From Gammaproteobacteria bacterium (GTDB lineage Bacteria; Pseudomonadota; Gammaproteobacteria; Burkholderiales; Burkholderiaceae_C), in NCBI GenBank assembly GCA_025359085.1, contig JANYHL010000075.1, positions 1 to 34,885 of the forward strand: a stretch of 34,885 nt of DNA. Direction: 5' to 3'. The position numbers were made by a program, and so were the translations under genes. The notes under the pieces are model-generated. The model ran no database searches and was not told where the DNA came from. It saw only the letters and a list, made by a program, of their open reading frames with translations. Shown piece after piece: positions 1 through 29,667 of this stretch (positions are counted from its first letter, which is position 1; every line of letters starts with the position of its first letter).

Positions 1-674
1 CCGATCTGCCCGCCGTCGCCTCGCCCTTGCAGGTCGACGACTTCCTCACCTGGGCCACCCTCGGTGTCGTGCTCGGCGGGCGGCTTGGCTACGTGCTGTT
101 CTACCAGCCCGCCACCTTCCTGGCCGACCCGGTGCGCATCCTGGAGGTGTGGACCGGCGGCATGAGCTTTCACGGCGGCATGCTGGGCGTCATTGCCGCG
201 ATGATCTGGTTTGCCCATTCACGCGGCAAGCCCTGGCTGCAGGTGGCGGATTTTGTGGCGCCCTGTGTGCCGACCGGGCTGGCCGCCGGACGCGTCGGTA
301 ACTTCATTAATGGTGAACTTTGGGGTCGTCTGAGCAGCCCGGATTTGCCCTGGGGCATGGTGTTCCGGGGCGCGGGCGATTTGCCACGGCATCCGTCGCA
401 GGTCTACCAGTTCTTGGGTGAAGGCTTGCTGTTGTTCGTGCTGCTGTGGCTGTACGCGCGCAAGGAGCGCAAACAGGGAGAAGTGGCTGCGGCTTTCTTG
501 CTGGGCTACGGTGTGTTTCGCTTTGTAGCCGAGTTTTTCCGGGAACCGGATGATTTTCTTGGCATTCTGTCGCTTGGCATGAGCATGGGGCAGTGGCTGT
601 GTGTGCCGATGATCGTGGGCGGCATCGGTTTGTGGTGGTGGGCGCAGCGCTCCTCAATAATTTATAAGAAATAA
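1..674 (+). CDS. lgt: Prolipoprotein diacylglyceryl transferase Lgt (5' end outside window)
   Basis: Inner-membrane enzyme that moves diacylglycerol from phosphatidylglycerol to the lipobox cysteine of prolipoproteins, the first step of lipoprotein maturation. The reading frame is open from the first bases of the window, so the true start lies upstream. Visible family motifs are [10 protein letters not shown], the Lgt signature [21 protein letters not shown], and near the end [11 protein letters not shown], which carries a conserved arginine. Several hydrophobic segments alternate with these loops, as expected for a polytopic protein. The last residues (about SSIIYKK) and the stop codon are encoded by a dispersed repeat, so this C-terminus is probably lineage specific. 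The crotonase gene follows after 94 bases, most of which is that repeat. The assignment is firm. Confidence 0.96.
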
Positions 675-729
675 GGCTCTAGCCAGCGTGTAATAAGCGT
701 TTACAGCTATCGATAGCATAGTAAATATT
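656..729 (+). repeat. Dispersed Comamonadaceae-type repeat, copy 1
   Basis: This stretch holds the core AAGGCTCTAGCC and ends in the inverted repeat AGCTATCGATAGC, flanked by AT-rich ends. It covers the lgt stop codon and most of the lgt-crotonase gap. It shares core and hairpin end with five other copies in the window. Its ends were judged by eye. Confidence 0.65.
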
Positions 730-768
730 TCCTGCTGAGTTCGTGTTATTCCATTCTGAAAGCAGATT

Positions 769-1590
769 GTGATGAGTTCCAAAGTGACGTCGCAGGGCCA
801 TATTCGCTGCGAGCACCAGGCCGGCCTGGCGCGGGTCACGATTGCCAATTCCTCTAAATTCAATGCCATGTCGCGTGCCATGTGGCGCGAGTTGCGCGCT
901 GTTTTTGAGCACATTCAGCGCAGCCCTGAGCTGCGTTGTGTGCTGCTGGTGGGGGAGGGCGCGCATTTTTGTGCCGGGGGTGATATTTTTGAATATGCGG
1001 CTTTCAGGTTCCAGGAGGCGAGCCTGCGCGACTTTCACGAGAACGACGTCTGGGGTGGTTTGCAGGCCATGCTGGACTGCGACGTGCCGATCGTGGCGCA
1101 GATTGCGGGCAACTGCATGGGCGCGGGGGTGGAGATGGCCAGTTGCTGCGATATCCGGCTGGCCAGTGCCAGCGCCCAGTTTGGCGCACCGATTGCCCGG
1201 CTCGGCTTTCCGATGGCACCGCGTGAAGCCGCCCTGGTAGCGCGCGAGCTGGGACTGACCGTGGCGCGCCAGATGCTGTTGGCCGCCGAGATTTTCAGCG
1301 CGGCCGACATGAAGGGTGCAGGTTTTCTCAGCCAGGTGCTGTCCGTGGACGCTTTGGCGACGCAGGCGCAAGCCACCGCCGTGCGCATCGCTGCCCTGGC
1401 CGCGCAGGCGGCGCGTCTTAATAAACAAACCATTCGGGCATTAAATCAGCCGCTAGTCCCCGAAAATAGGGCGCAACCAGCTATTGATTTGATATCAAAC
1501 GAGGCGAGTAGCGCCTACGCCTACGCCGCCAGCGCCGAACACCGTGAAGGCATTACCGCTTTTCTGGAGAAGAGAAAACCGGTGTTTTAA
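769..1590 (+). CDS. Enoyl-CoA hydratase/isomerase family (crotonase fold) protein
   Basis: Crotonase-superfamily enzyme, likely acting on an acyl-CoA by hydration, isomerisation or related chemistry; the substrate cannot be read from the sequence. The oxyanion-hole segments are both present: GAHFCAGGDIFEYA near residue 70 and NCMGAGVEMASCCDIRLAS near residue 120, followed by FGAPIARLGF. The C-terminus AEHREGITAFLEKRKPVF is the usual one for the family. GTG at 769 and ATG at 772 are adjacent possible starts and there is no strong ribosome-binding site to choose between them. About 22-25 residues near positions 224-248 (ALNQPLVPENRAQPAIDLIS and following) are encoded by a dispersed repeat inserted in frame, between RLNKQTIR and the AYAYAASAEHREG segment that family members normally have close by. 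The protein is therefore slightly long for its family at 272-273 residues. Confidence 0.88.
   Translation: MMSSKVTSQGHIRCEHQAGLARVTIANSSKFNAMSRAMWRELRAVFEHIQRSPELRCVLLVGEGAHFCAGGDIFEYAAFRFQEASLRDFHENDVWGGLQAMLDCDVPIVAQIAGNCMGAGVEMASCCDIRLASASAQFGAPIARLGFPMAPREAALVARELGLTVARQMLLAAEIFSAADMKGAGFLSQVLSVDALATQAQATAVRIAALAAQAARLNKQTIRALNQPLVPENRAQPAIDLISNEASSAYAYAASAEHREGITAFLEKRKPVF
1438..1502 (+). repeat. Dispersed repeat, copy 2, read in frame inside the crotonase gene
   Basis: This stretch has the core GCCGCTAGTCCCCG and the AGCTATTGATTTGATATC end of the family and lies entirely within the crotonase coding sequence. It is open in the gene's frame and adds roughly 22 residues without a stop. 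Its ends were judged by eye. Confidence 0.65.
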
Positions 1591-1639
1591 AGGGGCTGCA
1601 CCCAAAAATGCCTTTCGATTTCACGATTCGACGCCTGCC

Positions 1640-2083
1640 TTAACGCAATACCAGCACCGGCACATGGGAGTGCGTTAACACCAGTTGCGTTTCGCTGCCC
1701 AGCAGCAGGCGCTTGATGCCACGCCGGCCGTGTGAAGCCATCACGATCAAATCGCATTTGTGTTTTTTGGCCGCGGCAATGATGGCGTCCGATACCAGGT
1801 CTGACTTGACCGTGATCGCCTTGGTCTTGACACCGACGGCCAGGGCGGCTTGCTGCACCGCGTCGACGATCGCTTGGCCGTCTTCGGCCCACTGTTGTTC
1901 CACCCGGCTCACCTCGGCTGCCTGCAAGGCCAGACCGCCTTCAAAGTAGCTCTGCGGATAACGCGGAATGATTTTTACCGCCACCAGCTCGGCGCCGCAC
2001 AGCGCCGCCAGATCGATGGCGCTGCGGACTGCTTTTTTGGACAATGGGGAACCATCGGTGGCGACGAGAATCTTCTTGTACAT
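1640..2083 (-). CDS. uspA: Universal stress protein UspA family
   Basis: Single-domain universal stress protein of 147 residues, cytoplasmic, probably ATP binding. It begins MYKKILVATDGSPLSKKA, the standard Usp N-terminus with the nucleotide-binding aspartate. Near the end it has the ATP-binding pattern G-x2-G-x9-G-S in HGRRGIKRLLLGSET, followed by the typical VLTHSHVPVLVLR. The start at 2083 is chosen because AGGAG sits six bases upstream and because it gives the family N-terminus; an in-frame start at 2176 would add an unrelated leader crossing the promoter. An FNR box lies 56-69 bases upstream, and the gene is divergent from ccoI, so oxygen-limited expression is likely. FNR/ANR control of usp genes is known in other proteobacteria. 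The exact paralogue is not resolved. Confidence 0.9.
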   Translation of the reverse strand: MYKKILVATDGSPLSKKAVRSAIDLAALCGAELVAVKIIPRYPQSYFEGGLALQAAEVSRVEQQWAEDGQAIVDAVQQAALAVGVKTKAITVKSDLVSDAIIAAAKKHKCDLIVMASHGRRGIKRLLLGSETQLVLTHSHVPVLVLR

Positions 2084-2138
2084 GGTTTGCTCCTGAAGGT
2101 TTAAACAAAACAGCTTACACCCCTCCAGCGCTGATGTT

Positions 2139-2152
2139 TTGATGGGGGTCAA
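2139..2152. promoter_or_regulatory. FNR/ANR box between uspA and ccoI
   Basis: TTGATGGGGGTCAA matches the FNR consensus TTGAT-N4-ATCAA at 9 of 10 defined positions. Its centre (2145.5) is about 62 bases from the uspA start and 43 bases from the ccoI start. For uspA a class II position (-41.5) would put the transcription start near 2104 with TAAGCT (2117-2112) as a weak -10. For ccoI the spacing is tight. The window encodes an FNR whose recognition helix suits this site. Confidence 0.75.
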
Positions 2153-2188
2153 GTAAACTGCGGGCCTTGTTGGCAACCCTTGGAGCTC

Positions 2189-4531
2189 ATGTCAATTGCC
2201 AGTTCAGCCGTCGCCGTTGCGGCGCCCTCTGTCCCGATCGATCCCGCTGTCGGCAGTCCGGTCAGCGCGCCGGGTCCTGATGCGCTTGCAGACAGGCTGC
2301 GGCTACTGGACGAGCCGCAGGAGTGGATGGCCTTCAGTCGTCCTGAGGCCAAGCGCGCCCATTGTTGGGAGTCCAACATCCTGATTGAAGGCATGCACTG
2401 CGCGGCCTGTGCCCTGACGCTGGAAGATGTACTGCGGGGTGTGCCGGGCGTGTTGGCGGCCGAGGTCAGCGCGGGCAGCCACCGGGCGCGCGTAGTCTGG
2501 TCGGCCGATGCGGTGCGCCCATCGGACTGGATGCATGCGGTGCAAGTGGCCGGTTACCGTGGCGTACCGGCGAATGATGCGTTTGCCCGCGAGCGTCGAA
2601 AAAACGAAGCGCGCAAGGCACTTTGGCGCCTGCTGGTGGCCGGGCTGTGCATGATGCAGGTGATGATGTACGCCTACCCGGCTTATGTTGCGGCGCCCGG
2701 GGATTTGACGCCCGAGATGGAACAGCTACTGCGCTGGGCTTCCTGGGTGCTGACCTTGCCGGTGGTCCTGTTCTCCTGCGGGCCGTTCTTTGGCAACGCC
2801 CTGCGCGATGTAATGCATCTGCGCATCAGCATGGATTTGCCGGTCGCACTGGGCATGCTGATTACTTTTGCCGTCAGCACAGCGGGCACGTTTGATCCGC
2901 AGGGCATCTTTGGTCGCGAAGTTTATTTCGACTCGCTCACCATGTTTGTCTTTTTTTTGTTGTCGGGGCGCTGGCTGGAATTGCGTCTGCGGGACCGGAC
3001 GGCCGGCGCGCTGGAAGTGCTGATGAACCGCTTGCCGGACAGTGTGGCACGCCGGGCTATTGACGGTAGTTATGAACGGGTGCCGGTGCGCCGTCTGGTC
3101 GCGGGCGACGTCATGCGTATCCTGCCGGGTGAGACTTTCCCGGCCGATGGCGTGCTGCTGCAAGGCGAGACGATGGTCGATGAGGCCTTGCTCACGGGCG
3201 AGTCGCGTCCGGTCGCGCGGGGCGTTGGCGCGGCGGTGATTGCAGGCAGTCACAACCTTTCAGCCGTGGTTCAGGTTCGGGTTCAGCGACTCGGCGACCA
3301 CACCCGCTTTGCCCAGATTGTGGCGCTGATGGAGAGCGCGTCAACCACCAAGCCGCCGATCGCGCGCCTGGCCGATCGCATTGCCAAACCCTTTTTGCTG
3401 GTGGTCCTGCTGGCAGCGGGTCTGGCCGGTGCTTTCTGGTGGGGACGGGGACCCGGTCAGGCGCTGATGGTGGCGGTGGCGGTGCTGGTGGTGACCTGCC
3501 CTTGTGCCTTGTCACTGGCCACGCCTGCCGCCATGTTGGCGGCGGCGGGCACGCTGGCGCGCCGGGGCGTGCTGGTGCGTCGCCTGGAGGCTTTTGAAGC
3601 CTTGGCGGCGATTGACACGGTGGTGTTCGATAAAACGGGCACCTTGACGCGTGATGCCATGGTGTTGGGTGACCGGCAGACACGCGCGGGGGTCGCGCCA
3701 GAACAGGCGCTGGCGATGGCTGCGGCTTTGGCGCGCTATTCGCTGCACCCGGTATCGCGGGCATTGGTGCTGGCAGCCGACGGGGCGGCAACTCCTGGGG
3801 CGTGGCAGGCCGACGCCGTGCGCGAGCTTGCAGGGGCCGGGGTATCGGGCCGGGTCTGGCCGGGCAGTGTCGCGGGCGCACCGATTGATTTGCGGCTGGG
3901 CTCTGCCGATTTCTGTGGCGTGGCGGTGGCCCGGTCAGATTCGTTACAGGTTTATCTCAGCGATGCGCAAGGTTGGCTGGCAACTTTTGCATTTCATGAG
4001 CAGTTGCGCTCAGATGCCAAGGCAACGGTGGCAGCTCTGCAAGGTGCGGGTATCGAGGTGCATTTGTTGTCGGGCGACAGTGTGACGGCCGCGGCCCGGG
4101 TCGCCGCGCAGGTGGGCATCACCGCGTTCAAGGGCGCCTGTTCACCACAGGATAAACTCGATTTTTTGCGCCAGGCCCAACAACAAGGCCATAAGGTGGC
4201 GGTTGTGGGGGATGGCCTGAACGATGGCCCGGTGCTGGCGGGCGCCCACGTGTCGTTCGCCTTTGGGCTGGCTGTGCCCTTGGCGCAGGCGCAGGCGGAT
4301 TTCGTGGTGCTGGGTGATCAACTTGAGGCGGTGGCGCAAGCGCTGCGTCTGGCTCGCCGGACCCTGCGTGTGGTGCGGCAAAATTTAGGGTGGGCAGCCG
4401 GCTACAACGCGGTGTGCATTCCGCTGGCGATGGTGGGATGGATGCCGGCTTGGCTGGCGGGCTTGGGGATGGGTTTTAGCTCTCTGTGGGTGGTCCTCAA
4501 TGCCCTGCGTTTGGCCAAGAAACCGGATTAA
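2189..4531 (+). CDS. ccoI: Copper-translocating P1B-type ATPase for cbb3 oxidase (CcoI/FixI)
   Basis: Inner-membrane ATP-driven copper exporter of 780 residues, needed to supply copper for the CuB centre of cbb3 oxidase. Domains in order: an N-terminal metal-binding domain with GMHCAAC (Cys71, Cys74); transmembrane segments; the actuator loop with TGES; the copper-type membrane motif TCPCALS (CPC at 437-439); the phosphorylation motif DKTGTLT (Asp481); the HP motif in SLHPVSRAL of the nucleotide-binding domain; and GDGLNDGPVLAGA in the hinge. ATG at 2189 is preferred over an in-frame TTG at 2180. Its place directly before ccoS and the ccoNOQP genes, and the FNR box upstream, favour CcoI over a general CopA. 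It ends 13 bases before ccoS. The family is certain and the CcoI name is strongly supported by context. Confidence 0.94.
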   Translation: MSIASSAVAVAAPSVPIDPAVGSPVSAPGPDALADRLRLLDEPQEWMAFSRPEAKRAHCWESNILIEGMHCAACALTLEDVLRGVPGVLAAEVSAGSHRARVVWSADAVRPSDWMHAVQVAGYRGVPANDAFARERRKNEARKALWRLLVAGLCMMQVMMYAYPAYVAAPGDLTPEMEQLLRWASWVLTLPVVLFSCGPFFGNALRDVMHLRISMDLPVALGMLITFAVSTAGTFDPQGIFGREVYFDSLTMFVFFLLSGRWLELRLRDRTAGALEVLMNRLPDSVARRAIDGSYERVPVRRLVAGDVMRILPGETFPADGVLLQGETMVDEALLTGESRPVARGVGAAVIAGSHNLSAVVQVRVQRLGDHTRFAQIVALMESASTTKPPIARLADRIAKPFLLVVLLAAGLAGAFWWGRGPGQALMVAVAVLVVTCPCALSLATPAAMLAAAGTLARRGVLVRRLEAFEALAAIDTVVFDKTGTLTRDAMVLGDRQTRAGVAPEQALAMAAALARYSLHPVSRALVLAADGAATPGAWQADAVRELAGAGVSGRVWPGSVAGAPIDLRLGSADFCGVAVARSDSLQVYLSDAQGWLATFAFHEQLRSDAKATVAALQGAGIEVHLLSGDSVTAAARVAAQVGITAFKGACSPQDKLDFLRQAQQQGHKVAVVGDGLNDGPVLAGAHVSFAFGLAVPLAQAQADFVVLGDQLEAVAQALRLARRTLRVVRQNLGWAAGYNAVCIPLAMVGWMPAWLAGLGMGFSSLWVVLNALRLAKKPD

Positions 4532-4544
4532 TAACAAAGTCACT

Positions 4545-4679
4545 ATGGATATACTGTATTTGCTGATTCCGTTGTCAGTGATTCTGGTTTTTTTTATCCT
4601 GGGCGGCTTGTGGTGGGCGATCTACCGTGGTCAATTTGAGGACATTGAGTCTGAAGGCGAAAGAATTCTGAAGGATTGA
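4545..4679 (+). CDS. ccoS: cbb3 oxidase maturation protein CcoS
   Basis: Very short membrane protein of 44 residues. It starts MDILYLLIPLSVILVFFILG, a single transmembrane helix, followed by GLWWAIYRGQFEDIESEGER. The pattern of a helix, then W-A-x-x-x-GQF(D/E)D(L/I)E, is the CcoS/FixS signature. CcoS is needed to insert haem b and copper into CcoN during cbb3 assembly in the bacteria where it has been studied. It lies between ccoI and ccoN, 13 bases after the former, in the usual pairing with the copper ATPase. No strong ribosome-binding site is visible, so translation may be coupled to ccoI. Confidence 0.93.
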   Translation: MDILYLLIPLSVILVFFILGGLWWAIYRGQFEDIESEGERILKD

Positions 4680-4789
4680 TGAGAATTTTTGTAAGAATTT
4701 GACATGCTTCATAGGGTCTACCGGGAACTGACGAGTCGACGTGACCCACCCTAAGAAACTAACGTAAAACAAACTGAGAAGAGGTGAAT

Positions 4790-6226
4790 ATGGCATTTTC
4801 AAATACGCTGGCAACTACCTATGACGACAAGGTGGTCAGGCAGTTTGCTGTCATGACCGTTGTATGGGGCGTGGTCGGCATGCTGGTGGGCGTGATTATT
4901 GCCGCCCAATTGGCCTGGCCAGAGCTTAATTTTGGCATTCCCTGGCTCAGCTATGGTCGCTTGCGCCCCTTGCACACCAATGCGGTGATTTTTGCATTTG
5001 GTGGCTGTGGTTTGTTTGCCGCTTCCTACTATGTGGTGCAGCGAACATGTCAGGTTCGTCTGTTTGCCAGTGGTCTGGCCTCTTTCACTTTTTGGGGTTG
5101 GCAGTTGGTGATCCTTGCTGCCGCTGTTTCTCTGCCACTTGGGTACACCCAAGGCAAAGAATATGCAGAGCTCGAATGGCCCATTGACATCTTGATTACC
5201 CTGGTCTGGGTCTCCTACGCGATTGTGTTTTTTGGCACGGTCGGCACCCGCAAAGTCCGGCATATCTATGTGGCCAACTGGTTTTTCGGGGCGTTCATTC
5301 TTGCCGTGGCGCTGTTGCATTTGGTCAATAGTGCCGCCATTCCCGCGGGCTACATGAAGTCTTATTCAGCCTATGCCGGTGTGCAGGATGCCATGGTGCA
5401 GTGGTGGTATGGTCACAACGCCGTGGGCTTTTTCTTGACGGCCGGTTTCCTGGGCATGATGTATTACTTTATTCCCAAGCAGGCTGAGCGTCCGGTTTAC
5501 TCCTACCGTCTGTCCATCGTTCACTTCTGGGCGCTGATCTTTACCTACATGTGGGCGGGTCCGCACCATTTGCATTACACCGCGCTGCCGGATTGGACGC
5601 AATCGGTGGGCATGGTGTTTTCCCTGATTTTGCTGGCGCCAAGCTGGGGCGGCATGATCAACGGCATCATGACTTTGTCGGGTGCTTGGCACAAATTGCG
5701 TGACGATCCCATTCTTCGTTTCCTGATTGTTTCGCTGTCGTTTTATGGCATGTCGACCTTTGAAGGTCCGATGATGTCGATCAAAACCGTGAATGCCTTG
5801 TCGCACTACACCGACTGGACCATTGGTCACGTGCACTCCGGCGCACTGGGTTGGGTTGGTCTGGTGACCATGGGCTCCATGTACTACCTGATTCCGAAGC
5901 TGTTTGGACAGAAACAGATGTACAGCGTGAAGGCCATCGAGGTGCATTTCTGGACCGCAACGATTGGGATCGTGATCTACATCGCGGCCATGTGGATTGC
6001 CGGTGTAATGCAGGGTTTGATGTGGCGTTCGATCAACCCCGATGGCACTTTGACCTACTCTTTTGTGGAATCCGTCAAAGCCACGTTCCCGTTTTATGTG
6101 TTGCGTTTGCTCGGTGGCCTTTTGTACCTCGGTGGCATGTTGGTCATGCTCTGGAACACATTCAAGACGGCGACCAGGGGCCGTTCCGTTAACGTGACCA
6201 TTCCGGCCGTCGTTGTCCACGCTTGA
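4790..6226 (+). CDS. ccoN: cbb3-type cytochrome c oxidase subunit I (CcoN)
   Basis: Catalytic subunit of the high-affinity cbb3 oxidase, 478 residues with about twelve transmembrane helices, carrying low-spin haem b and the haem b3-CuB centre where oxygen is reduced. Ligand motifs are visible: RPLHTN with His62 for low-spin haem b, [10 protein letters not shown] with His209, GPHHLHY with His259-His260 for CuB, and IGHVHSG with His347 and His349 for the two haems. YGMSTFEGP holds the conserved helix VII tyrosine that in this family is cross-linked to a CuB histidine. ATG at 4790 is chosen over GTG at 4784 because GAGGTGA just upstream acts as ribosome-binding site. It is followed after 13 bases by ccoO. 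The 110 bases before it show no clear FNR box, so it may also be read from the ccoI promoter. Confidence 0.98.
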
Positions 6227-6239
6227 GAAAGAAAATACC

Positions 6240-6866
6240 ATGGCAAACAACAAGGCAAGCGGCGGAATGTCGCACGCAAACATTGAAACCAACAACTTCC
6301 TCATGATCGTTTTGATCTTGCTGGTGTTGCTGGTGGGCGGCTTGGTGGAGATTGTTCCGCTGTTTTTCCAGAAGTCCACGACTGAGCCTGTCAAGGGTCT
6401 GCAGCCTTACACGGCACTGCAGTTGGCCGGGCGTGACATCTACACCCGTGAGGGGTGCTACAACTGCCACTCACAGATGATTCGACCGTTGCGCGCCGAG
6501 ACTCTGCGCTATGGCCACTATTCCGTCGCGGGCGAATTTGTCTATGACCATCCCTTTCAGTGGGGCAGCAAGCGCACCGGTCCCGATCTGCATCGCGTCG
6601 GGGGCAAGTACAGTGACCAATGGCATGCAACGCATTTGAATAATCCGCGGGATCTGGTGCCTGAATCCAATATGCCTGCTTATCCATGGCTTCTTAAAGA
6701 CACGGTGGATGCTGAATCCATGCCAGCGCACATGAAGGCCTTGCGAATCGTGGGTGTGCCTTATACCGACGAGCAAATCGCCCAATCTTCTGCTGAACTC
6801 AAGGGAAAGAAGGAGATTGAAGCAGTCATCGCCTACCTGCAGGTGTTAGGAACCTTGGTCAAGTAA
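6240..6866 (+). CDS. ccoO: cbb3-type oxidase mono-haem cytochrome c subunit (CcoO)
   Basis: Membrane-anchored c-type cytochrome of 208 residues in the cbb3 complex, which passes electrons from CcoP or soluble cytochrome c to CcoN. After a short N-terminal tail there is one transmembrane helix ([20 protein letters not shown]). The periplasmic domain carries the haem c site CYNCH (Cys73, Cys76, His77) in the family context [14 protein letters not shown], and the likely axial methionine Met145 in [13 protein letters not shown] at 6240 is preferred; an in-frame TTG at 6213 would overlap the end of ccoN and add residues the family lacks. The ribosome-binding site is weak, which fits coupling to ccoN, and ccoQ follows after 16 bases. 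Confidence 0.97.
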
Positions 6867-6882
6867 ACGGGAGATATTTCGC

Positions 6883-14274: not shown

Positions 14275-14348
14275 AAATATTAATTTGCTATATAAATAAT
14301 AGCTATAAACCTATATTCTACGGGGGCTACGAGCCAATTTTTTATAAA
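14275..14348. repeat. Dispersed repeat, copy 3
   Basis: Located in the gap between dusA and the MFS gene. It contains ATTCTACGGGGGCTACGAGCC, whose complement matches copy 6 over GTAGCCCCCGTAGAATAT, and an AT-rich hairpin end (TGCTATATAAATAATAGCTA). The rest of the 246-base gap shows no convincing gene. Confidence 0.65.
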
Positions 14349-14422
14349 CTTGACAGAAAACGGCTTGCGGGCGTGAAGGGGGGCGTTCTGTGTGTTGGCG
14401 CCGGTTCCCTTACCATCGCGGC

Positions 14423-22582: not shown

Positions 22583-23029
22583 TTACTTCAGGTGCTTGCC
22601 AATCAGGCCAGCCATCTCAAACATCGACACCTGCATCTTGCCAAAGACTTCTTTCAGTTTGGCGTCGGCATTGATCATGCGTTTATTGACGGCGTCTTGC
22701 AGCTTGTTCTTCTTGATGTAAGTCCACAACTGCTTGACCACCTCGGTGCGCGGCAGCGGGCCAACGCCCACGATGGCTGCCAGCGCGGCGCTGGGCGTCA
22801 GGGCCCTCATGAAGGCGGCATTGGCCGTGCGTTTTTTAGCGGGTGCTTTTTTGACAATAACTTTCTTGGCCGGAGCGGCTTTTTTAGCCGGTGCAGCTTT
22901 TTTTGCCGGAGCCTTGACGGCTACTTTTTTAGCCGGAGCGGCTGTTTTTGCCGGAGCGACTTTCTTGACCGGTGCTACTTTTTTAGCGGGAGCAGCTTTT
23001 TTTGCCGGTGCTTTCTTTGCAGTTGCCAT
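22583..23029 (-). CDS. SWIB/MDM2-domain protein with histone-H1-like Lys/Ala/Pro tail
   Basis: Protein of 148 residues in two parts. Residues 1-67 or so are a low-complexity basic tail made of repeats such as KKAAPAKK and KKVAPAKK, like the tail of histone H1 and bacterial HC1-type proteins. Residues 75-148 form a SWIB/MDM2 domain: ALAAIVGVGPLPRTEVVKQL, then WTYIKKNKLQDAVNKRMINA and FGKMQVSMFEMAGLIGKHLK. The SWIB fold is known from eukaryotic chromatin-remodelling complexes and from chlamydial proteins. A DNA-binding or nucleoid role is likely from the tail but not shown. The start at 23029 has AGAAGGA at good spacing; an in-frame ATG at 23083 adds a non-conserved leader. A terminator follows. 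Confidence 0.9.
   Translation of the reverse strand: MATAKKAPAKKAAPAKKVAPVKKVAPAKTAAPAKKVAVKAPAKKAAPAKKAAPAKKVIVKKAPAKKRTANAAFMRALTPSAALAAIVGVGPLPRTEVVKQLWTYIKKNKLQDAVNKRMINADAKLKEVFGKMQVSMFEMAGLIGKHLK
22838..23026 (-). repeat. Low-complexity A-P-A-K-K coding repeats
   Basis: Imperfect tandem units of about 15-24 bases (GCCGGAGCGGCTTTTTTAG-like on the forward strand) encode the basic tail of the SWIB protein. Unit number is likely to vary between strains by slippage. Confidence 0.7.
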
Positions 23030-23213
23030 GATTGTTTGTCCTTCTGAAAGTTGATGAGTCACCAGTAAAAACGGCTTCCTCACTGGTGCGGTGGATGCTA
23101 CTGGAGAATGGCTGTGTTTCCAAGGGGAAAATCCTGTATTTCATTGGGAAATGTTGTTTTTTTTGGTTTGTGCGCTTCGACTCTACAATTTTGCTGCTTA
23201 AAGGACATGAATC

Positions 23214-23735
23214 ATGACCCCAACATTCACCACTTGTGATTTGTGCGATGCGTATAAAAACGATGTTTCCGGTGCTTTGCGGGTGTTGCCCCCGGTGTTC
23301 CGGGACTTCGGCGGCGTGCACCATTTTTGCGGACCGGTGGTAACCGTCAAATGCTTTGAAGACAACTCGGGGGTCAAGGCGGCCGTCGAGTCAGTGGGTT
23401 ATCAAGAGACGCCAGCGGGGCGCGTTGGCAAAGTGCTGGTGGTCGATGGCGGTGGCTCTTTGCGGCGCGCCTTGCTGGGTGGCAAGCTGGCGGCGGCCGC
23501 GGCCCGAAATGGCTGGGCCGGCCTGGTGATCGATGGTTGCGTACGTGACGTGCGCGAACTGGCTGCGTTGGGTCTGGGCATTCGCGCGCTGGCGTCGATG
23601 CCGTTGCCAACGGAAAAACGCGGTGAAGGGCACCACGACATTGCGCTGCAAATCCAGGGTGTCTGGGTGCGACCCGGCGACTGGCTCTATGCCGATGAAG
23701 ATGGCATGGTGCTGGCTGCCAGTCGTCTCATTTGA
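23214..23735 (+). CDS. rraA: RraA family protein (RNase E activity regulator / HMG aldolase fold)
   Basis: Protein of 173 residues with the RraA fold. TCDLCDAYKNDVSGALRVLP is the typical N-terminus. VVDGGGSLRRALLGGKLAA and GLVIDGCVRDVRELAALGL hold the conserved Arg/Asp positions that bind metal and substrate in aldolase members. The ending GDWLYADEDGMVLA is also typical. Such proteins are either regulators of RNase E or 4-hydroxy-4-methyl-2-oxoglutarate/oxaloacetate-type aldolases, and sequence alone does not decide. AAAGGA precedes ATG at 23214. Its 3' end overlaps the convergent EamA gene by 8 bases. Confidence 0.9.
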   Translation: MTPTFTTCDLCDAYKNDVSGALRVLPPVFRDFGGVHHFCGPVVTVKCFEDNSGVKAAVESVGYQETPAGRVGKVLVVDGGGSLRRALLGGKLAAAAARNGWAGLVIDGCVRDVRELAALGLGIRALASMPLPTEKRGEGHHDIALQIQGVWVRPGDWLYADEDGMVLAASRLI

Positions 23736-24681
23736 CTCGCGCGGCGGGCAGGGTGGCCAGCAGCACGCCGGCCAAGGCAATGGCGAAGGCCAGCACCTGC
23801 AGGCCAGTGAGCGTTTCACCCAAAGCCAGCACGCCCACCAGTGCCGCCGAAATCGGCAGCATCACCGTGAAGACGCCGGCCTTGGCAGCGGGCACGGTTT
23901 TGAGTCCGGTCATCCAGAGCCAGACCGTCCAGACACTGGCCGCCAGCGCATAAAACACAAGCAGCAGCCAGGTGGCGGGCCGCACCGCAAGCCAGTCAAA
24001 TTTCAAGGCGGCGTAAACACCGAACGGCGTCATCAAGACAAAGCCCCACAGGTTGATCAGCGCGGTGATGCGTTTGGGTGTCAACGCGCCTGTGAGTTGC
24101 TTGCCGATCACGGCGTAAGACGCCTCGCACACGACCGCCGCAAAGACCAGGAGATTGCCCAGCATTGCATTTTTAGAGATTAAACTTGGCTCTAGCCCCC
24201 GTCCTTCTTGGGTGAGTAGCTCTGATTTTGATAATGCAAAGAGGCCAATGCCACAGGCAGCGCAGGCAATGGCGATCCCTACCCGCAGGCCAATGCGCTC
24301 GCGTAAAAAGACCCAGCTCAGCAGTGCCACCATCGCCGGAATGGTGGCCAGGATGATGCCCGCCGAGACCGCACTGGTCAGGCTCACGCCATACAGCATG
24401 CACAGGGTAAACAAAAAATTGCCTAAAAAGGACTCCAGAAAAAGCAGCCGTTTGATGCGCCCGGTCATCGGCACTTCGGTCGCCGGTTTGGCCAGCCAGT
24501 GCGGCATCGCGAGCGCGCCGATGCCAAATCGCAACCAGGCCAGCAACAGCACCGGCAGTGCCGCCGCCAATGGTTTGGACAGGGCCACGTAGCTGCCCAC
24601 CAGGGACATGCTGAGGGCTAGAAAAAAATAACCACGCAAAAGACGGGAGGTGCTTGGCGCGGAGCTGGGAGCGGGAGTCAC
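23728..24681 (-). CDS. EamA/DMT family transporter
   Basis: Drug/metabolite-transporter superfamily protein of 317 residues with about ten helices in two EamA halves. First half: LVGSYVALSKPLAAALPVLL, LAWLRFGIGAL, ILATIPAMVALLSWVFLRER. Second half: ILINLWGF-like region, AASVWTVWLWMTGLKTVPAA, VFTVMLPISAALVGVLALGE. The substrate is unknown; amino acids or other metabolites are usual. The loop between helices 5 and 6 contains about 22 residues (SKSELLTQEGRGLEPSLISK) encoded by a dispersed repeat read in frame. The gene converges on rraA with an 8-base overlap. Confidence 0.92.
   Translation of the reverse strand: MTPAPSSAPSTSRLLRGYFFLALSMSLVGSYVALSKPLAAALPVLLLAWLRFGIGALAMPHWLAKPATEVPMTGRIKRLLFLESFLGNFLFTLCMLYGVSLTSAVSAGIILATIPAMVALLSWVFLRERIGLRVGIAIACAACGIGLFALSKSELLTQEGRGLEPSLISKNAMLGNLLVFAAVVCEASYAVIGKQLTGALTPKRITALINLWGFVLMTPFGVYAALKFDWLAVRPATWLLLVFYALAASVWTVWLWMTGLKTVPAAKAGVFTVMLPISAALVGVLALGETLTGLQVLAFAIALAGVLLATLPAARVK
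24165..24239 (-). repeat. Dispersed repeat, copy 4, read in frame inside the EamA gene
   Basis: It contains TTGGCTCTAGCCCCCGT and GAGTAGCTCTGATTTTGATA and is bounded by the inverted hexamers TTGCAT (24165) and ATGCAA (24234). The whole element is open in the gene's reading frame and encodes a soluble loop. This is the clearest full-length copy in the window. Confidence 0.72.
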
Positions 24682-24768
24682 TGCGGTCAGGTACCTGGAA
24701 ATTGCTGCAGCTGCGCATCATGCCTGATGCCTGCCCGGCACCCCCTGGGGGCACTGGGCGCGCCTGGC

Positions 24769-24798
24769 TTGGGAAGAGGTTTTGTATGTCGGTATAAT
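24769..24798 (+). promoter_or_regulatory. Candidate etfBA promoter
   Basis: TATAAT at 24793-24798 is a perfect -10 hexamer; TTGGGA at 24769 with an 18-base spacer is a moderate -35. Transcription would start near 24805, giving a leader of about 160 bases before etfB. This is inferred from consensus only. Confidence 0.5.
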
Positions 24799-24803
24799 TT
24801 AAA

Positions 24804-24823
24804 AAAAGCACGGTCGTACTATT
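24804..24823. promoter_or_regulatory. Imperfect palindrome at the etfBA start site (operator-like)
   Basis: AAAAGCACGG and TCGTACTATT form an inverted repeat matching at 7 of 10 positions, with inner half sites GCACG/CGTAC. It overlaps the predicted transcription start, the usual place for a TetR-type repressor. The regulator is unknown. Confidence 0.4.
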
Positions 24824-24887
24824 ATTTGCCAAATTTATCGCCTGTCATCTGCATGACCCAGCGGGAAGATGGCACAGCATAGAATGC

Positions 24888-24913
24888 CCTCATTGACGTG
24901 CACGTCAATGAGG
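24888..24913. promoter_or_regulatory. Perfect 26-bp palindrome in the etfBA leader
   Basis: The half site CCTCATTGACGTG is followed directly by its exact reverse complement. It lies 55 bases before etfB. There is no T run after it, so it is not a terminator. It is most likely an operator for a dimeric regulator of acyl-CoA metabolism. TGACGTGC recurs just downstream at 24915. Confidence 0.6.
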
Positions 24914-24968
24914 ATGACGTGCTTTGTGAAGTCAATCGCCGAATTCGTAACTATCTGGAGTCGAAGCA

Positions 24969-25718
24969 ATGAAAGTCCTGGTCGCAGTGAAACGCGTGGT
25001 CGATTACAACGTGAAGGTCCGCGTCAAATCGGACAACACGGGTGTTGATATCGCCAACGTCAAAATGAGCATGAACCCTTTTGATGAGATCGCTATCGAA
25101 GAAGCCGTGCGCCTGAAAGAAAAAGGCGTGGTCACCGAGGTCATCGCCGTATCCTGCGGCGTGACTCAGTGCCAGGAAACCCTGCGCACGGCCATGGCGA
25201 TTGGCGCGGACCGCGCCATCCTGGTCGAGACCACGGTCGAACTGCAGCCCCTGGCCGTGGCCAAGCTGCTCAAGGCGCTGGTGGACAAAGAACAACCCGG
25301 CCTCATCATCCTGGGCAAGCAAGCCATTGACGATGACTGCAACCAGACCGGCCAGATGCTGGCCGCGCTGGCCGATCTGCCGCAAGCCACCTTCGCCAGC
25401 AAGATTGAAGTGGCGGACGGCAAAGCCTCAGTCACGCGCGAAGTCGACGGCGGCTCGGAAACGCTGTCGGTCAGCCTGCCCGCCGTCATTACCGCCGACT
25501 TGCGCCTCAACGAGCCGCGCTACGTGACGCTGCCCAACATCATGAAGGCGAAAAAGAAGCCGCTTGAAATTTTCAAGCCCGAGGACCTTGGTGTGGACGT
25601 GACACCGGGTATCAAGACCCTCAAGGTCAGCGAACCGCCCAAGCGCAGCGCCGGCATCAAGGTCCCCGATGTGGCGACGCTGGTGGCCAAACTCAAGAAT
25701 GAAGCGAAGGTGATCTAA
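24969..25718 (+). CDS. etfB: Electron transfer flavoprotein beta subunit (EtfB)
   Basis: Small ETF subunit of 249 residues. With EtfA it takes electrons from acyl-CoA dehydrogenases and passes them to ETF-ubiquinone oxidoreductase. It starts [20 protein letters not shown], and [20 protein letters not shown] is the beta-subunit motif. [31 protein letters not shown] and [26 protein letters not shown] residues form the AMP-binding and signature regions. GGAG precedes the ATG. Its stop directly abuts the etfA start. The acyl-CoA dehydrogenase gene downstream is a natural partner. Confidence 0.97.
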
Positions 25719-26651
25719 ATGACAGCTCTAGTAATTGCAGAACATGACAACGCGACCCTCAAGGGCGCAACCCTCAACACCGTGACCGCTGCCGTCCAAT
25801 GTGGCGGTGCGGTGCACGTGCTGGTGGCCGGTGCCAACGCCGCCGCGGCGGCTGCGGCTGCGGCGCAGATTGCAGGCGTCTCCAAGGTGCTGCACGCTGA
25901 CAGCGCCGCCCTGGCCCATGGCCTGGCCGAAAACATGACCGCGCAAATTCTTGGCCTGGCCTCGAACTACAGCCATATCCTGTTTGCCGCCACCGCCTCC
26001 GGCAAGAACATTGCGCCACGCGTGGCCGCCAAGCTCAACGTCGGTCAGATATCTGACGTCACCAAGGTCGACAGCCCCGACACTTTCGAGCGTCCGATCT
26101 ACGCGGGCAACGCCATTGCCATTGTGCAGAGCACTGACGCTATCAAGGTCATCACCGTGCGCACCACCGGCTTTGACCCGGCGGCGGCCACCGGTGGCAC
26201 GGCGGCCGTCGAGACCGTGGCAGCGGTCACCGCCAGTGACAAGTCAACTTACATGGGCAGTGAAATCGCCAAAAATGATCGCCCTGAGCTGACCGCAGCC
26301 AAGATCATCGTTTCTGGTGGGCGCGCGTTGGGCTCCAGCGAGAAGTTCATGGAAGTGCTGCTGCCGCTGGCCGACAAGCTGGGTGCCGCCATCGGCGCCA
26401 CGCGCGCCGCCGTCGATGCCGGTTACTCGCCCAACGACTGGCAAATCGGCCAGACCGGCAAGATTGTCGCGCCCCAGCTGTACATCGCGGTGGGTATCAG
26501 CGGCGCGATCCAGCATCTGGCCGGCATGAAGGATTCCAAGGTGATCGTCGCCATCAACAAAGACCCCGAAGCACCGATTTTCTCGGTGGCTGACTACGGA
26601 CTTGAAGCGGACCTGTTCGTGGCGGTGCCTGAACTGGTTGCCGCGCTCTAA
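25719..26651 (+). CDS. etfA: Electron transfer flavoprotein alpha subunit (EtfA)
   Basis: FAD-binding ETF subunit of 310 residues. An alanine-rich N-terminal domain ([20 protein letters not shown]) precedes the conserved C-terminal FAD domain: [60 protein letters not shown] and [20 protein letters not shown]. The ATG follows the etfB stop with no gap (TAAATG), which implies coupled translation. A terminator closes the pair 14 bases later. Confidence 0.97.
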
Positions 26652-26665
26652 GCCAGGCGTCATCA

Positions 26666-26693
26666 GGGCATCGCTTGCGGTGCCCTTTTTTTT
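26666..26693 (+). terminator. Rho-independent terminator after etfA
   Basis: Stem GGGCATCG / CGGTGCCC (one G-T pair) with a four-base loop, followed by eight T residues. It lies 14 bases after the etfA stop and separates etfBA from the acyl-CoA dehydrogenase gene, which therefore needs its own promoter or read-through. Confidence 0.88.
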
Positions 26694-26752
26694 CGCGCCC
26701 TGTTTGAACGATTGGACGAGCGCACTTTTCCTTTTCCATTTGGAGACTCGCC

Positions 26753-28543
26753 ATGAGCTACGTTGCCCCCCTGAAAGACATGCTGTTCAACCTCAAGTAT
26801 CTCGCCGATATTGAGCAAATTGCGCAGTTTCCCGGTTTTGAAGATGCCGGTTTTGAGACGGCGCAAGCGGTGCTGGAAGAGGCCGCCAAGTTCAATGAAG
26901 GGGTGCTCGGGCCGCTGAATTGGGAAGGTGACAAAAATCCGTCGAGCTGGAAAGACGGCGTGGTGACGGCCACGCCGGGTTTCAAGGAAGCGTTTCGCCA
27001 ATTCGCAGAAGGAGGCTGGCAAGGCTTGCAACACCCGGTCGATTTTGGCGGCCAGGGTTTGCCCAAGACCATCGGCGCGGCTTGCGGCGAAATGCAAAAC
27101 TCAGCCAACATGAGTTTTGCCTTGTGCCCGCTCTTGACCGACGGCGCGATTGAAGCCCTGCTGACGGCCGGCTCCGACGAACTGAAAGCCACCTACCTTG
27201 AAAACTTGGTGAGTGGCAAATGGACCGGCACCATGAACCTGACCGAGCCGCAGGCCGGCAGCGACCTGGCCGCCGTGCGCAGCCGGGCGGAACCGCTGCT
27301 TGACGGCAGCTACAAGGTGTTTGGCACCAAGGTCTTCATCACCTGGGGTGAGCACGACATGGCTGAAAACATCGTCCATCTGGTGCTGGCCCGCGTCACG
27401 GGGGCGCCGGAAGGCGTCAAGGGCATCAGTCTGTTTGTGGTGCCCAAATTTTTGGTGAACAACGACGGCTCCTTGGGTGCGCGCAATGATGTGCAGTGCG
27501 TGAGCATCGAGCACAAGATGGGCATCAAGGCCAGCCCGACCGCCGTGTTGCAGTTCGGTGACCATGGCGGTGCGCTGGGTTACCTGGTGGGCCAGGAAAA
27601 CCGGGGCCTCGAATATATGTTCATCATGATGAACGCGGCCCGCTACGGCGTTGGCGTGCAGGGCATTGCCGTTGCCGAACGCTCTTATCAACAAGCGGTG
27701 AGCTTCGCCAAAGACCGGGTGCAAAGCCGTCCGGTCGACGCCTCGGCACCGGCCAACGCGACCATCATTTACCACCCGGATGTGAAGCGCATGCTGATGA
27801 CCATGCGCGCCTACACCGAGGGCTGCCGCGCCATGGCAACCGTGGCCGCCGCGGCCTTTGACGCCGCCCATCATCACCCAGACGCGGCGACGCGCAAACA
27901 AAATCAGGCGTTCTATGAATTCATGGTGCCTTTGGTCAAGGGCTACAGCACCGAGATGAGCCTGGAGGTCACCTCGCTGGGCGTGCAGGTGCATGGCGGT
28001 ATGGGCTACATCGAAGAAACCGGTGCCGCGCAGTACTACCGTGATGCCAAAATTCTGACCATCTACGAAGGCACCACCGCGATTCAGGCCAATGACCTGG
28101 TCGGGCGCAAGACGGCGCGGGATGGCGGGCAAACTGCCAAGGGAATTGCCGCGCAGATTGAAGCGACGGAAGTCCTTTTGCTCAAAAGCGGCAGTGCCGA
28201 CGCGGTGGCGGTCGCCCAGCGGCTCAAGGCCGCCCGTTTGGCTTTTGTCGATGTCGTTGAGTTTGTGGCGAGCAATACCAAGACCCGGCCCCAAGATGTG
28301 TTTGCCGGCAGTGTGCCCTACCTGATGCTGGCCGGTAACCTGATGGCCGGTTGGCAATTGGCGCGCGCGCTGCTGCTGGCCCAGGACGAGATCGCCCACG
28401 GTGTGGATGTGTCCTTCATGCAAGCCAAGATCATCACGGCGCGCTTTTATGCCGACCATCTGCTGACCAAGGCCCCGGGCATGCGTGACGCCATCGTGGA
28501 AGGCTGCCAGAGCGTGACAGCGCTGGCTTTGGAGGCGTTTTGA
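26753..28543 (+). CDS. Acyl-CoA dehydrogenase, long DmdC/FadE-like type
   Basis: FAD enzyme of 596 residues that introduces the alpha-beta double bond into acyl-CoA and hands electrons to ETF. It is longer than the usual 380-residue dehydrogenases because of an N-terminal addition (SYVAPLKDMLFNLKYLADIE) and a C-terminal domain, as in the group that includes 3-methylmercaptopropionyl-CoA dehydrogenase DmdC. Motifs are MNLTEPQAGSDLAAVRS, KVFITWGEHDM, NAARYGVGVQGIAVAERSYQ, GVQVHGGMGYIEETGAAQYY and the catalytic-glutamate segment ILTIYEGTTAIQANDLVGRK. GGAG lies before the ATG. The substrate is not decided: DMSP-derived 3-methylmercaptopropionyl-CoA is possible, but many such paralogues act on ordinary fatty acyl-CoA. 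Confidence 0.93.
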   Translation: MSYVAPLKDMLFNLKYLADIEQIAQFPGFEDAGFETAQAVLEEAAKFNEGVLGPLNWEGDKNPSSWKDGVVTATPGFKEAFRQFAEGGWQGLQHPVDFGGQGLPKTIGAACGEMQNSANMSFALCPLLTDGAIEALLTAGSDELKATYLENLVSGKWTGTMNLTEPQAGSDLAAVRSRAEPLLDGSYKVFGTKVFITWGEHDMAENIVHLVLARVTGAPEGVKGISLFVVPKFLVNNDGSLGARNDVQCVSIEHKMGIKASPTAVLQFGDHGGALGYLVGQENRGLEYMFIMMNAARYGVGVQGIAVAERSYQQAVSFAKDRVQSRPVDASAPANATIIYHPDVKRMLMTMRAYTEGCRAMATVAAAAFDAAHHHPDAATRKQNQAFYEFMVPLVKGYSTEMSLEVTSLGVQVHGGMGYIEETGAAQYYRDAKILTIYEGTTAIQANDLVGRKTARDGGQTAKGIAAQIEATEVLLLKSGSADAVAVAQRLKAARLAFVDVVEFVASNTKTRPQDVFAGSVPYLMLAGNLMAGWQLARALLLAQDEIAHGVDVSFMQAKIITARFYADHLLTKAPGMRDAIVEGCQSVTALALEAF

Positions 28544-28552
28544 TCGGATTTG

Positions 28553-28622
28553 AAGTTGCTATCTATTGAATAGCTGCTTACCCTTTATAGACAAGGGCCA
28601 GCGGCTATTTTTATCAATAACA
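28553..28622 (-). repeat. Dispersed repeat, copy 5
   Basis: It has TTGCTATCTATTGAATAGCTGC (hairpin end) and ends GGCCAGCGGCTATTTTTATC, in reverse orientation to copy 1. It fills the gap between the acyl-CoA dehydrogenase and the nitronate-monooxygenase-like gene. It is the one copy that clearly touches no coding sequence apart from copy 3. Confidence 0.62.
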
Positions 28623-28644
28623 CTGAGATGTTGACGGAGATTTG

Positions 28645-29610
28645 ATGTCCCACTTGCCCGCGCCCCTGAACCGCTTGCCGTTCCCGGTGATCGGCTCGCC
28701 CTTGTTCATCATCAGCAACCCCAAGCTGGTGATTGCCCAGTGCATTGCGGGGGTGGTGGGGGCGATGCCGGCGCTCAACGCGCGCCCGGCCGAGCAGCTC
28801 GAAGAATGGCTGATCGAAATCACCGAGGCGCTCGCGGCCTATAACCAGGCCCACCCGGACCAACCCGCCGCACCCTTTGCCATCAACCAGATCGTGCACA
28901 AGAGTAATGACCGCCTGACGCACGACATGGGTTTGTGCGTCAAGTACCAGGTGCCGATCATCATCACCAGCCTGGGCGCGCGCGAAGACATCAACGCGGC
29001 CGCTCACTCGTATGGTGGTGTGGTGCTGCATGACGTCATCAACAACAAGCATGCGCACAAGGCGATCGAGAAAGGCGCCGACGGCCTGATTGCGGTGGCG
29101 GCGGGGGCCGGGGGCCATGCCGGATTGAAGAGCCCGTTTGCCCTCATTCAGGAAATTCGCCAGTGGTTTGACGGCCCGCTGGTCTTGAGCGGTGCCATCG
29201 CCACCGGCAACGCCGTGCTGGCCGCGCAGGCCATGGGCGCTGACTTTGCCTATATTGGCTCGGCCTTCATTGCAACCGAAGAGGCGCGCGCCGCAGAGGC
29301 TTACAAACAAGCCATTGTCGACAGCAACTCGGACGATATCGTCTACAGCAACCTGTTTACCGGCGTCCATGGCAACTACCTGGCGCCCAGCATCCGCAAC
29401 GCCGGCCTCGACCCCGAGCATCTACCGGAAAGCGACCCCAGCAAGATGAACTTTGGCGGCGACAAGTCACGAGCCTGGAAAGACATCTGGGGCTGCGGCC
29501 AAGGGATTGGCGCCGTCACCAAAATTCACAGTACCGCCGATTTTGTGGCCCAGCTCAAGCGTGAGTACGCCCAGGCACGCGTGCGACTTTTGGAAATAAA
29601 TTATGCCTGA
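28645..29610 (+). CDS. Nitronate monooxygenase-like FMN protein (2-nitropropane dioxygenase family)
   Basis: TIM-barrel flavoprotein of 321 residues in the NMO/2-nitropropane dioxygenase family, which also includes enoyl-ACP reductase FabK relatives. FPVIGSPLFIISNPKLVIAQ is the N-terminal FMN-binding segment. AVAAGAGGHAGLKSPFALIQ contains the family histidine, and PLVLSGAIATGNAVLAAQAM with GADFAYIGSAFIATEEA forms the phosphate-binding part. The true substrate is uncertain; many members next to acyl-CoA genes have no proven nitronate activity. ATG at 28645 with GGAG upstream is chosen. The last residues (about EINYA) and the stop come from a dispersed repeat. Confidence 0.9.
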   Translation: MSHLPAPLNRLPFPVIGSPLFIISNPKLVIAQCIAGVVGAMPALNARPAEQLEEWLIEITEALAAYNQAHPDQPAAPFAINQIVHKSNDRLTHDMGLCVKYQVPIIITSLGAREDINAAAHSYGGVVLHDVINNKHAHKAIEKGADGLIAVAAGAGGHAGLKSPFALIQEIRQWFDGPLVLSGAIATGNAVLAAQAMGADFAYIGSAFIATEEARAAEAYKQAIVDSNSDDIVYSNLFTGVHGNYLAPSIRNAGLDPEHLPESDPSKMNFGGDKSRAWKDIWGCGQGIGAVTKIHSTADFVAQLKREYAQARVRLLEINYA

Positions 29611-29667
29611 TTGGGCTGTAGCCCCCGTAGAATATGCGCAATTTGCTATTTAAATAATAGCATTTGG
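29593..29667 (+). repeat. Dispersed repeat, copy 6, shared 3' end of two convergent genes
   Basis: It contains GGGCTGTAGCCCCCGTAGAAT and the hairpin end TGCTATTTAAATAATAGCA. It covers the stop codon of the nitronate-monooxygenase-like gene on the forward strand and the last codons and stop of trhO on the reverse strand. Confidence 0.7.

Follow-up and report, generated by a model that had tools for sequence, protein, structure and literature searches.

The window, i.e., the whole stretch of 34,885 nucleotides analysed here, carries six segments that belong to a single 65-bp repeat family (Table 1). All six match a covariance model of 34 copies, the window copies among them, from end to end (51–62 bits, E <2e-15); the remaining four matches in the window score at most 16.6 bits, and three of these are the right-hand palindrome in backward reading. 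A first-pass annotation had described one dispersed family of six copies, 65–80 bases long and lying in both orientations. The family and the orientations (four copies on the plus strand, two on the minus strand) are borne out; the element measures 65 bp and varies little in length. The same annotation had five copies touching coding sequence and none with coding capacity of its own. According to our gene calls, which come from a home-made hexamer model, four do so (those starting at 660, 1434, 24173 and 29599), those at 14285 and 28556 being intergenic, and both gene-internal copies are read through in frame. Copy 2, also present in Rhodoferax KJN.1, encodes ...NQPLVPENRAQPAIDLIS... within the enoyl-CoA hydratase/isomerase, and copy 4 is translated as ...KSELLTQEGRGLEPSLISKN... 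within the EamA transporter. At the site orthologous to copy 1, no element is detectable in KJN.1; at the copy 5 site, relatives devoid of the element show gaps (measured by eye) of -1 to 25 bases in six cases and of 154–813 in five. Finally, the density and coding overlap that had seemed unusual in the window correspond to the genome average.

Table 1. The six copies of the 65-bp element in the window, with covariance model scores and gene context.
Copy	Position	Strand	Score (bits)	Gene context
1	660..724	+	57.6	spans stop codon of lgt (27-674 +; LGT PF01790)
2	1434..1498	+	51.1	within enoyl-CoA hydratase/isomerase gene (769-1590 +; ECH_1 PF00378)
3	14285..14349	-	55.7	intergenic, between Dus gene (ends 14176 +) and MFS gene (+)
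4	24173..24237	+	58.2	within opposite-strand EamA transporter gene (23728-24681 -; PF00892)
5	28556..28620	-	55.9	intergenic, between acyl-CoA dehydrogenase gene (26753-28543 +) and NMO-family gene (28642-29610 +)
6	29599..29663	+	61.5	spans stop of NMO-family gene (28642-29610 +) and end of convergent TrhO-like gene (29650-30873 -)

The ends are common to the copies: when 29 of them are anchored on the GGCT core, information climbs at -15 and drops at +49. These ends are not the inverted ones initially proposed, for the consensus termini (TTTTAT... and ...ATAGCAA) do not pair; the 65-bp element thus lacks the terminal inverted repeats of a MITE, and that reading was abandoned. Sites without the element have diverged too far for target site duplications or insertion sizes to be scored. 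A profile search of 435 kb returned 78 copies, which extrapolates to about 570 in the genome. With a whole-element profile (profiles being derived from copies in the same genomes as those searched), there are 77 matches in 435 kb, against none in five Markov-1 resamplings and none in the reversed sequence. The core GGCTCTAGCCCCCGT taken alone (up to three mismatches) shows a weak excess, with four matches in the window for a shuffle mean of 0.95 (four being reached by one of 100 shuffles) and 384 genome-wide versus 211 in the backward control. This genome-wide enrichment of only about twofold is what a chance or compositional artefact could appeal to, but the comparison of 77 matches to zero in every control refutes such an explanation; the orthologous conservation reported below also speaks against it, and we give it practically no credence.

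The 78 copies are far from randomly placed: 33 lie inside coding sequences (62.6 expected at random), 27 are intergenic (8.6 expected) and 16 overlap a gene 3' end (3.6 expected). Non-internal copies favour gene 3' ends and shun divergent regions. In the window's genome and KJN.1, respectively, 13/45 and 24/59 of them fall between convergent genes (35/251 and 68/501 of the intergenic regions), versus 6/45 and 4/59 between divergent genes (49/251 and 90/501 of the regions). Gene-internal copies amount to 32/77 in the window's genome and 59/118 in KJN.1, and 75 of these 91 use two of the six reading frames. Frame same-0 is stop-free in 30/104 non-coding copies, yet holds five internal ones, whereas frame same-2 is stop-free in 21/104, yet holds 45; the commonest frame of internal copies yields an Ala-rich peptide. 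In the ECH and EamA proteins, the linker or loop is longer in element-rich genomes and shorter in most element-poor ones (exceptions: G021 for ECH, G012 and G015 for EamA), although the difference (about 7–13 residues) falls below a clean 22-residue insert.

Both flanks of 27 sites could be matched in KJN.1, and 26 of these sites hold the element, always in the same orientation; two of them meet one KJN.1 element, which leaves 25 distinct pairs. Another tally gives 38/47, with some sites scored against two genomes and with weak pairs and one opposite orientation included. Since nearly all orthologous sites are shared by the two species, recent mobility can be rejected. Elements are more similar between orthologs (72.7% identity) than between non-orthologs (56.5%), even though some ortholog pairs (0.55–0.60) are no closer than random pairs, so that replacement at some sites is possible. 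Over 13 non-coding pairs, wherever the copy in the window's genome carries the consensus letter, KJN.1 retains it at 251/271 conserved cells (93%) versus 75/123 variable cells (61%; Fisher 1.5e-13), the flanks being 50–64% identical. Ten pairs had been set apart as coding by rule and two more, including the hydratase, by hand; a strict set of ten non-coding pairs, obtained by removing three further doubtful pairs, gives 196/212 versus 59/98 (3e-11). Because non-orthologous pairs already agree at 88% of conserved positions, the case for constraint depends on how far these differ from variable positions and from the flanks, over 10–13 pairs of one species pair. Orthologous positions are kept across related species and genera, and the copies are old and appear constrained, without a recent burst.

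Among the candidates scored per genome, the covariance model finds matches in 71 (the window's own counted) out of 200 genomes from the family, while among 185 genomes of the class the window's own is the single one to match. Because the number of candidates scored per genome was capped, and stricter filters were applied in all but one survey (over 40 genomes), per-genome copy numbers are lower bounds; the cuts for rich and poor genomes were set at 77 and 33 matches. The intergenic site between aroB and dgt holds the element in 21/24 element-rich versus 1/18 element-poor genomes, which leaves three rich genomes without a copy there, and five of the 21 rich-genome positives score just 9–15 bits. 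On a quick tree of four proteins, the rich or poor state changed at least six times, and we infer that copies may have been lost in a coordinated manner in some lineages.

DNA uptake sequences offer a known case of hundreds of maintained sites, in and between genes, with lineage dialects. They are about 10–30 bp long, whereas the 65-bp element holds about 49–56 bits and is an insertion relative to element-free sites. Our searches of an open-access literature collection turned up no description of this family. As described in two papers, the Rickettsia palindromic elements (RPE; 44 integrations, 19 reading frames with an insertion) are also short repeats that occur in intergenic DNA as well as in frame within many unrelated genes, but they reach 105–150 bp and have long stem-loops and terminal inverted repeats (PMC10969869, PMC2229807). 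The 65-bp element resembles them in its in-frame insertions in unrelated genes (91 internal copies) with orthologs lacking it, and is set apart, by description, by its length, its ends and its betaproteobacterial hosts, as well as by a hairpin that is broken in the dialect of the window's genome and an extrapolated copy number about ten times higher. In-frame fusions of small repeats to genes are likewise known from the enterobacterial RU-1/ERIC, RU-2 and RU-3 (PMC2759123); these are described as MITE-like, 103–168 bp long and mostly provided with terminal inverted repeats (PMC2229807), and the intragenic cases described are single ones, unlike here. The beta-proteobacterial repeat element of Bordetella (BRE), which has also been reported from Rhodoferax and Polaromonas, has some copies in genes too, but it is about 90 bp long, 69% GC in Bordetella, often in tandem and limited to at most 29 copies per genome (PMC3110155). 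Our element, with 65 bp, 31–54% GC in full-length copies and hundreds of dispersed copies per genome, differs from BRE by description.

Parallels also exist with REP/BIME sequences: high copy number, preference for gene ends, CTAG or GTAG beside a hairpin and, in some genomes, a RAYT with the element at its end. The initial suggestion of REP-like mobile units holds in that there are hundreds of copies in two orientations, with a gene-end preference and empty orthologous sites, but not for inverted ends or a matching transposon. Indeed, no transposon with ends matching the element was found, the single candidate enzyme being a RAYT (REP-associated tyrosine transposase; NCBIfam NF047646, above cut-off). 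Its gene neighbours gltB in the window's genome; one element covers its stop at the 3' end and another lies 53 bp upstream. A resident RAYT might process the single-stranded element and copy it, the constraint then reflecting enzyme recognition. In line with this, an element match lies at the RAYT 3' end in 13/30 element-rich and 0/20 element-poor named genomes (at a lax threshold, E up to 10), two element copies on C37 sit immediately beside the 22-bp terminal repeat of the RAYT itself, and CTAG or GTAG precedes the H1 hairpin (mostly broken in the window's genome) as GTAG heads REPs (PMC2817692). Yet, REPs are defined there as short palindromes, with two inverted copies around the RAYT and an abundance tied to RAYT presence. 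Here, the two copies around the RAYT of the window's genome have the same orientation, both on the plus strand, and the 65-bp element is no extragenic palindrome of 20–40 bp with a GTAG-type head, 32/77 and 59/118 copies being in genes. Moreover, abundance does not follow the RAYT among the genus genomes: PF01797 matches in 39/40 of them, and six of the 26 loci in which the RAYT was read come from genomes with zero elements (G007, G009, G012, G017, G027, G035). The 50 named genomes, picked by RAYT, show just the range of copy number where it is present (0 to at least 105). Furthermore, 17/30 rich genomes lack an element at the RAYT 3' end, copies at gene 3' ends are common anyway, and the constant spacing of 33–34 bp is accounted for by common descent. 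Since this phyletic test fails, RAYT was dropped as the proven mover and kept as a possible one, an explanation that we consider doubtful on balance. The 22-mer itself is not a dispersed repeat, with just four perfect copies in its own genome (seven with up to three mismatches), and 152/162 of its matches adjoin a RAYT, in loci mostly chosen for their RAYT. In some genomes without the full element, the RAYT 3' sequence GCTATNNATTTTGAT resembles palindrome H2, of which it may be either a remnant or the origin.

Alternatively, the copies could be bidirectional transcription terminators that spread and were then kept at gene ends. The bias of the copies towards gene 3' ends and towards regions between convergent genes fits such a role, as do the stable central hairpin of G024 and Polaromonas OV174 (mean z of about -2 to -2.6, from 20 single-base shuffles each) and pair 27-41, which switches between GC (16) and CG (15). 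However, this pair is unpaired in 37/68, H1 covariation is weak and dialect-dependent, no covariation was found in H2, and genes contain two fifths to half of the copies. Positions 24/38, mostly C-C, G-C or C-G according to the lineage, are C-C, with a broken hairpin, in 58/80 copies of the window's genome and 107/123 of KJN.1 (mean z of -0.7 to -0.95), and the sequence is nonetheless constrained there. Terminators appear improbable. A structured RNA element was also rejected: at gathering thresholds the window yields no match to Rfam, A1 shows no consensus structure, and H2 does not covary. Ongoing homing or gene conversion of selfish copies might instead mimic selection and generate the dialects, which are genome-specific and common to many copies; some orthologous pairs do look replaced. 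Whole-element rewriting would, however, erase ortholog-specific identity at variable positions, where it stands at 56% versus 34% for random pairs, and we deem this scenario slightly less probable still than terminators.

The reading that we favour, tentatively and with a confidence just short of even, is that of an old non-autonomous mobile repeat of Comamonadaceae-type bacteria now held by selection, probably as a putative host-factor site. Its mobile origin is inferred from orthologous sites without the element. The 65-bp sequence would have spread long ago and become nearly stationary between related species, and selection on some 23 conserved positions, non-coding sites included, would hold the copies, as the pattern between two species suggests. 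These positions may be the DNA target of a host factor, usable in either orientation and often at gene ends, while lineages no longer needing it would lose nearly all copies together. Copies within genes (two fifths to half, mostly in two frames) form part of the proteins. Stop-spanning copies, mostly on the gene's own strand (29 versus 14), are not predicted by a purely orientation-free site; the dialects could also result from homogenisation, and possible replacement at some orthologous sites likewise speaks against this reading. A bolder version, which we regard as conceivable though rather unlikely, is that the repeat was co-opted wholesale, several hundred sites being read by a trans factor whose specificity drifts from lineage to lineage (dialects C-C, G-C and C-G at positions 24/38) and whose loss would make a lineage shed nearly all copies together, with DNA site and tolerable peptide co-selected at the nearly half of sites that lie in proteins.

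Repeats scattered through bacterial genomes are commonly regarded as selfish or extragenic. In the present case, one family occupies hundreds of sites, of which nearly half lie in genes, and seems constrained copy by copy, which, together with positions kept in related species and genera, suggests former mobile DNA now kept for a purpose. For annotation, proteins of these genomes may hold a repeat-derived segment like NQALAPVxxAQxAIxxIA. If our reading is true, these bacteria would represent a large natural experiment on mobile DNA turning into a host property, lineage-specific segments would have been added to many of their proteins, and a DNA-binding partner should be findable.

Each of the six segments that the first-pass annotation had assigned to one repeat family matches end to end, with 51–62 bits, a covariance model built from these segments and 28 more aligned copies of the same genome; the remaining four matches in the window score at most 16.6 bits. 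The whole element is also in excess over randomised DNA, as the HMM yields 77 matches at E ≤ 0.001 versus 0 in the controls (the reversed sequence and five resamplings under a Markov-1 model). The draft genome measures 3.16 Mb in 149 contigs. An uncapped count in 434,885 bases of it, made up of the window and 20 further 20-kb stretches, gives 78 copies at E ≤ 0.01, which extrapolates to about 570 genome-wide, while the full model gives at least 150 (150 of 1293 candidates scored).

The element is 65 bp long, with sharp edges and an almost constant length. Its majority sequence, TTTTATATCAAATCAGGCTCTAGCCCCCGTCGAATATGCGTAAGCAGCTATTAATTTAATAGCAA, comprises a left arm rich in A/T, a CTAGCC core and a GCG block, with the palindrome H2 (AGCTAT..ATAGC) on the right, for which no covariation was seen among the copies; the element has no terminal inverted repeats. 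The central hairpin (H1) pairs in some genus relatives, namely in GCGCTTATnnATAAGCGC-type copies of G010 and G023 and in CCCTTATnnnTAAAGGG-type copies of G024 and G004, the samples outside the two main genomes being small (0 to 16 copies each). In the window's genome, H1 is mostly broken, positions 24/38 being C-C in 58 of 80 copies, and the same holds for the element-rich relative Rhodoferax sp. KJN.1 (107/123). A role as terminator is hard to square with this broken hairpin.

According to our own gene calls (341 genes, 86% coding), 33 of the 78 copies lie inside genes, fewer than the 62.6 expected; intergenic copies (27 against 8.6) and copies over the 3′ end of a gene (16 against 3.6) are in excess. 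KJN.1 (686 gene calls over 860 kb) gives the same picture, with 59 of 118 copies within genes. Relative to all intergenic regions of at least 20 bases, non-genic copies avoid divergent gene pairs (6/45 vs. 49/251 in the window's genome, 4/59 vs. 90/501 in KJN.1) and favour convergent ones (13/45 vs. 35/251 and 24/59 vs. 68/501). Copies beside a nearby stop codon are of mixed orientation (26 same, 31 opposite), and those covering the stop lean to the strand of the gene (29 vs. 14).

Frame same-2 (consensus like xNxALAPVxxAxxAIxxIA) accounts for 45 of the 91 gene-internal copies of both genomes, anti-1 for 30 and the remaining four frames together for 16, including 5 in same-0. Stop codons account for this bias only in part, since same-0 is stop-free more often than same-2 in non-coding copies (30/104 vs. 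21/104), yet is used less. The earlier view that the repeats have no coding capacity of their own does not hold, two window copies contributing segments to an enoyl-CoA hydratase and an EamA transporter. The element-derived linker of the former is common to KJN.1, matched in length by G060 and shorter in several element-poor relatives (G003, G006, G007, G027, G028, G030, G035), but long in G021, likewise element-poor. Element-rich species have the EamA loop in common, and in most element-poor ones it is shorter, except that G012 and G015, in which 0 and 11 copies were recognised, retain a loop of similar length.

Of the 35 genus relatives, 27 give one match or more (15 of them at least 75, counts being capped at 87) and 8 none. 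Across the family, 71 of 200 genomes match, counting the window's own, as do 56 of 141 genera; there were no matches in 24 genomes from other families of the order, and in the class sample (185 genomes) only the window's own matched. Named element-rich genomes include Rhodoferax, Polaromonas, Acidovorax and Curvibacter, and the counted genomes of Variovorax, Ramlibacter, Caenimonas, Hydrogenophaga and Hylemonella carry 0–4 copies. The aroB-dgt intergenic region, about 4 kb from the gene of a REP-associated tyrosine transposase (RAYT) in the window's genome, was examined at 81 loci, one from the window's genome and 80 named; 66 were readable, and copy counts exist for 42 of these. Among the 24 element-rich genomes (Rhodoferax, Polaromonas, Curvibacter and others), 21 have the element there, five of these matches being weak (9–15 bits), and it was not found in L279, L223 and L231; in the 21 the gap is 48–91 bp, mostly element, in a single orientation by eye. 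No match was found in 17 of 18 element-poor genomes, whose gap is −26 to 23 bp, bar one (88 bp, L296), and 5 of the 24 loci without copy counts have a match. A quick four-protein tree has the rich/poor state (cut at 77 and 33 matches) changing 8 times; well-supported branches force at least 6 of these changes, and L218, L220, L221 and L224 form a poor clade nested within rich genomes. We read this pattern and the aroB-dgt site as probable repeated, coordinated loss; independent gain at that site, in one orientation and in 21 genomes, appears less likely.

Of 122 distinct own-genome copies examined, 27 have both flanks matched in the KJN.1 DNA covered, and 26 of these sites carry the element there, always in identical orientation (two meet one and the same KJN.1 element). 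With 26 of 27 sites recovered, KJN.1 contributes little ascertainment. The element is a dispersed family with filled and empty sites, retained at orthologous sites. Orthologous pairs are 72.7% identical versus 56.5% for non-orthologous ones, so that most are the same insertions, even if some (0.55–0.60 identity) are no better than random. Homogenisation of the copies is hard to square with the ortholog-specific identity at variable positions. Considering cells where the window's genome carries the family consensus, KJN.1 keeps it in 13 non-coding pairs at 251/271 conserved-position versus 75/123 variable-position cells, with flanks 50–64% identical (ungapped). If the pair at the RAYT end and two that our gene calls put at gene starts are dropped, the values for the 10 left are 196/212 versus 59/98; twelve coding pairs have 218/235 versus 67/98. 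Equal neutral decay across all positions is ruled out by this contrast, which shows position-specific constraint in non-coding copies of this species pair.

The RAYT (NCBIfam NF047646, above the family cut-off; best named matches in Rhodoferax and other Comamonadaceae) is a possible mover. In the window's genome, one element lies at its 3′ end and another 53 bp upstream, its terminal repeat is directly abutted by two element copies, and the 3′ element resembles the own genome's dialect in several species. Against this, RAYT was also read in genomes with zero elements, a 3′ match occurs in only 13 of 30 element-rich genomes, and the pair of flanking copies is in direct orientation. Separately, most of the 68 alignable RAYT 3′ flanks (of 80, L218–L297) are followed by TTTRATNTGTCCCCAATTA, often preceded by GCTATNNATTTTGAT, which resembles H2 even without a full element. 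In G062, a genus relative in one contig, Y1 transposases are matched seven times, and three of these matches score identically, in contrast to many other genus genomes with a single low-scoring RAYT match.

Locations of individual sites
Site	Location	Observation
Window copy at 660	660..724, +	Lone flank-matched site without element in KJN.1
L358	G000:C37:32217-36220 (window's genome)	Three perfect RAYT terminal repeat copies away from RAYT, two directly abutting an element copy; by eye, a sugar-nucleotide/polysaccharide gene region
L182, L187 (G010, G023)	Orthologous to window 28544-28641	~1.4 kb extra between acyl-CoA dehydrogenase and NMO-family genes; apparently a gene, element-like sequence at either end (by eye)
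L001, L002	G000:C7	Two copies ~4 kb apart, left flank in common: local duplication including the element

The coding insertions recall Rickettsia palindromic elements and the placement recalls REPs, but the element fails the tests of REP/RAYT membership. The open-access literature searched yielded no description of it. We infer that it is a putative DNA site for a host factor.
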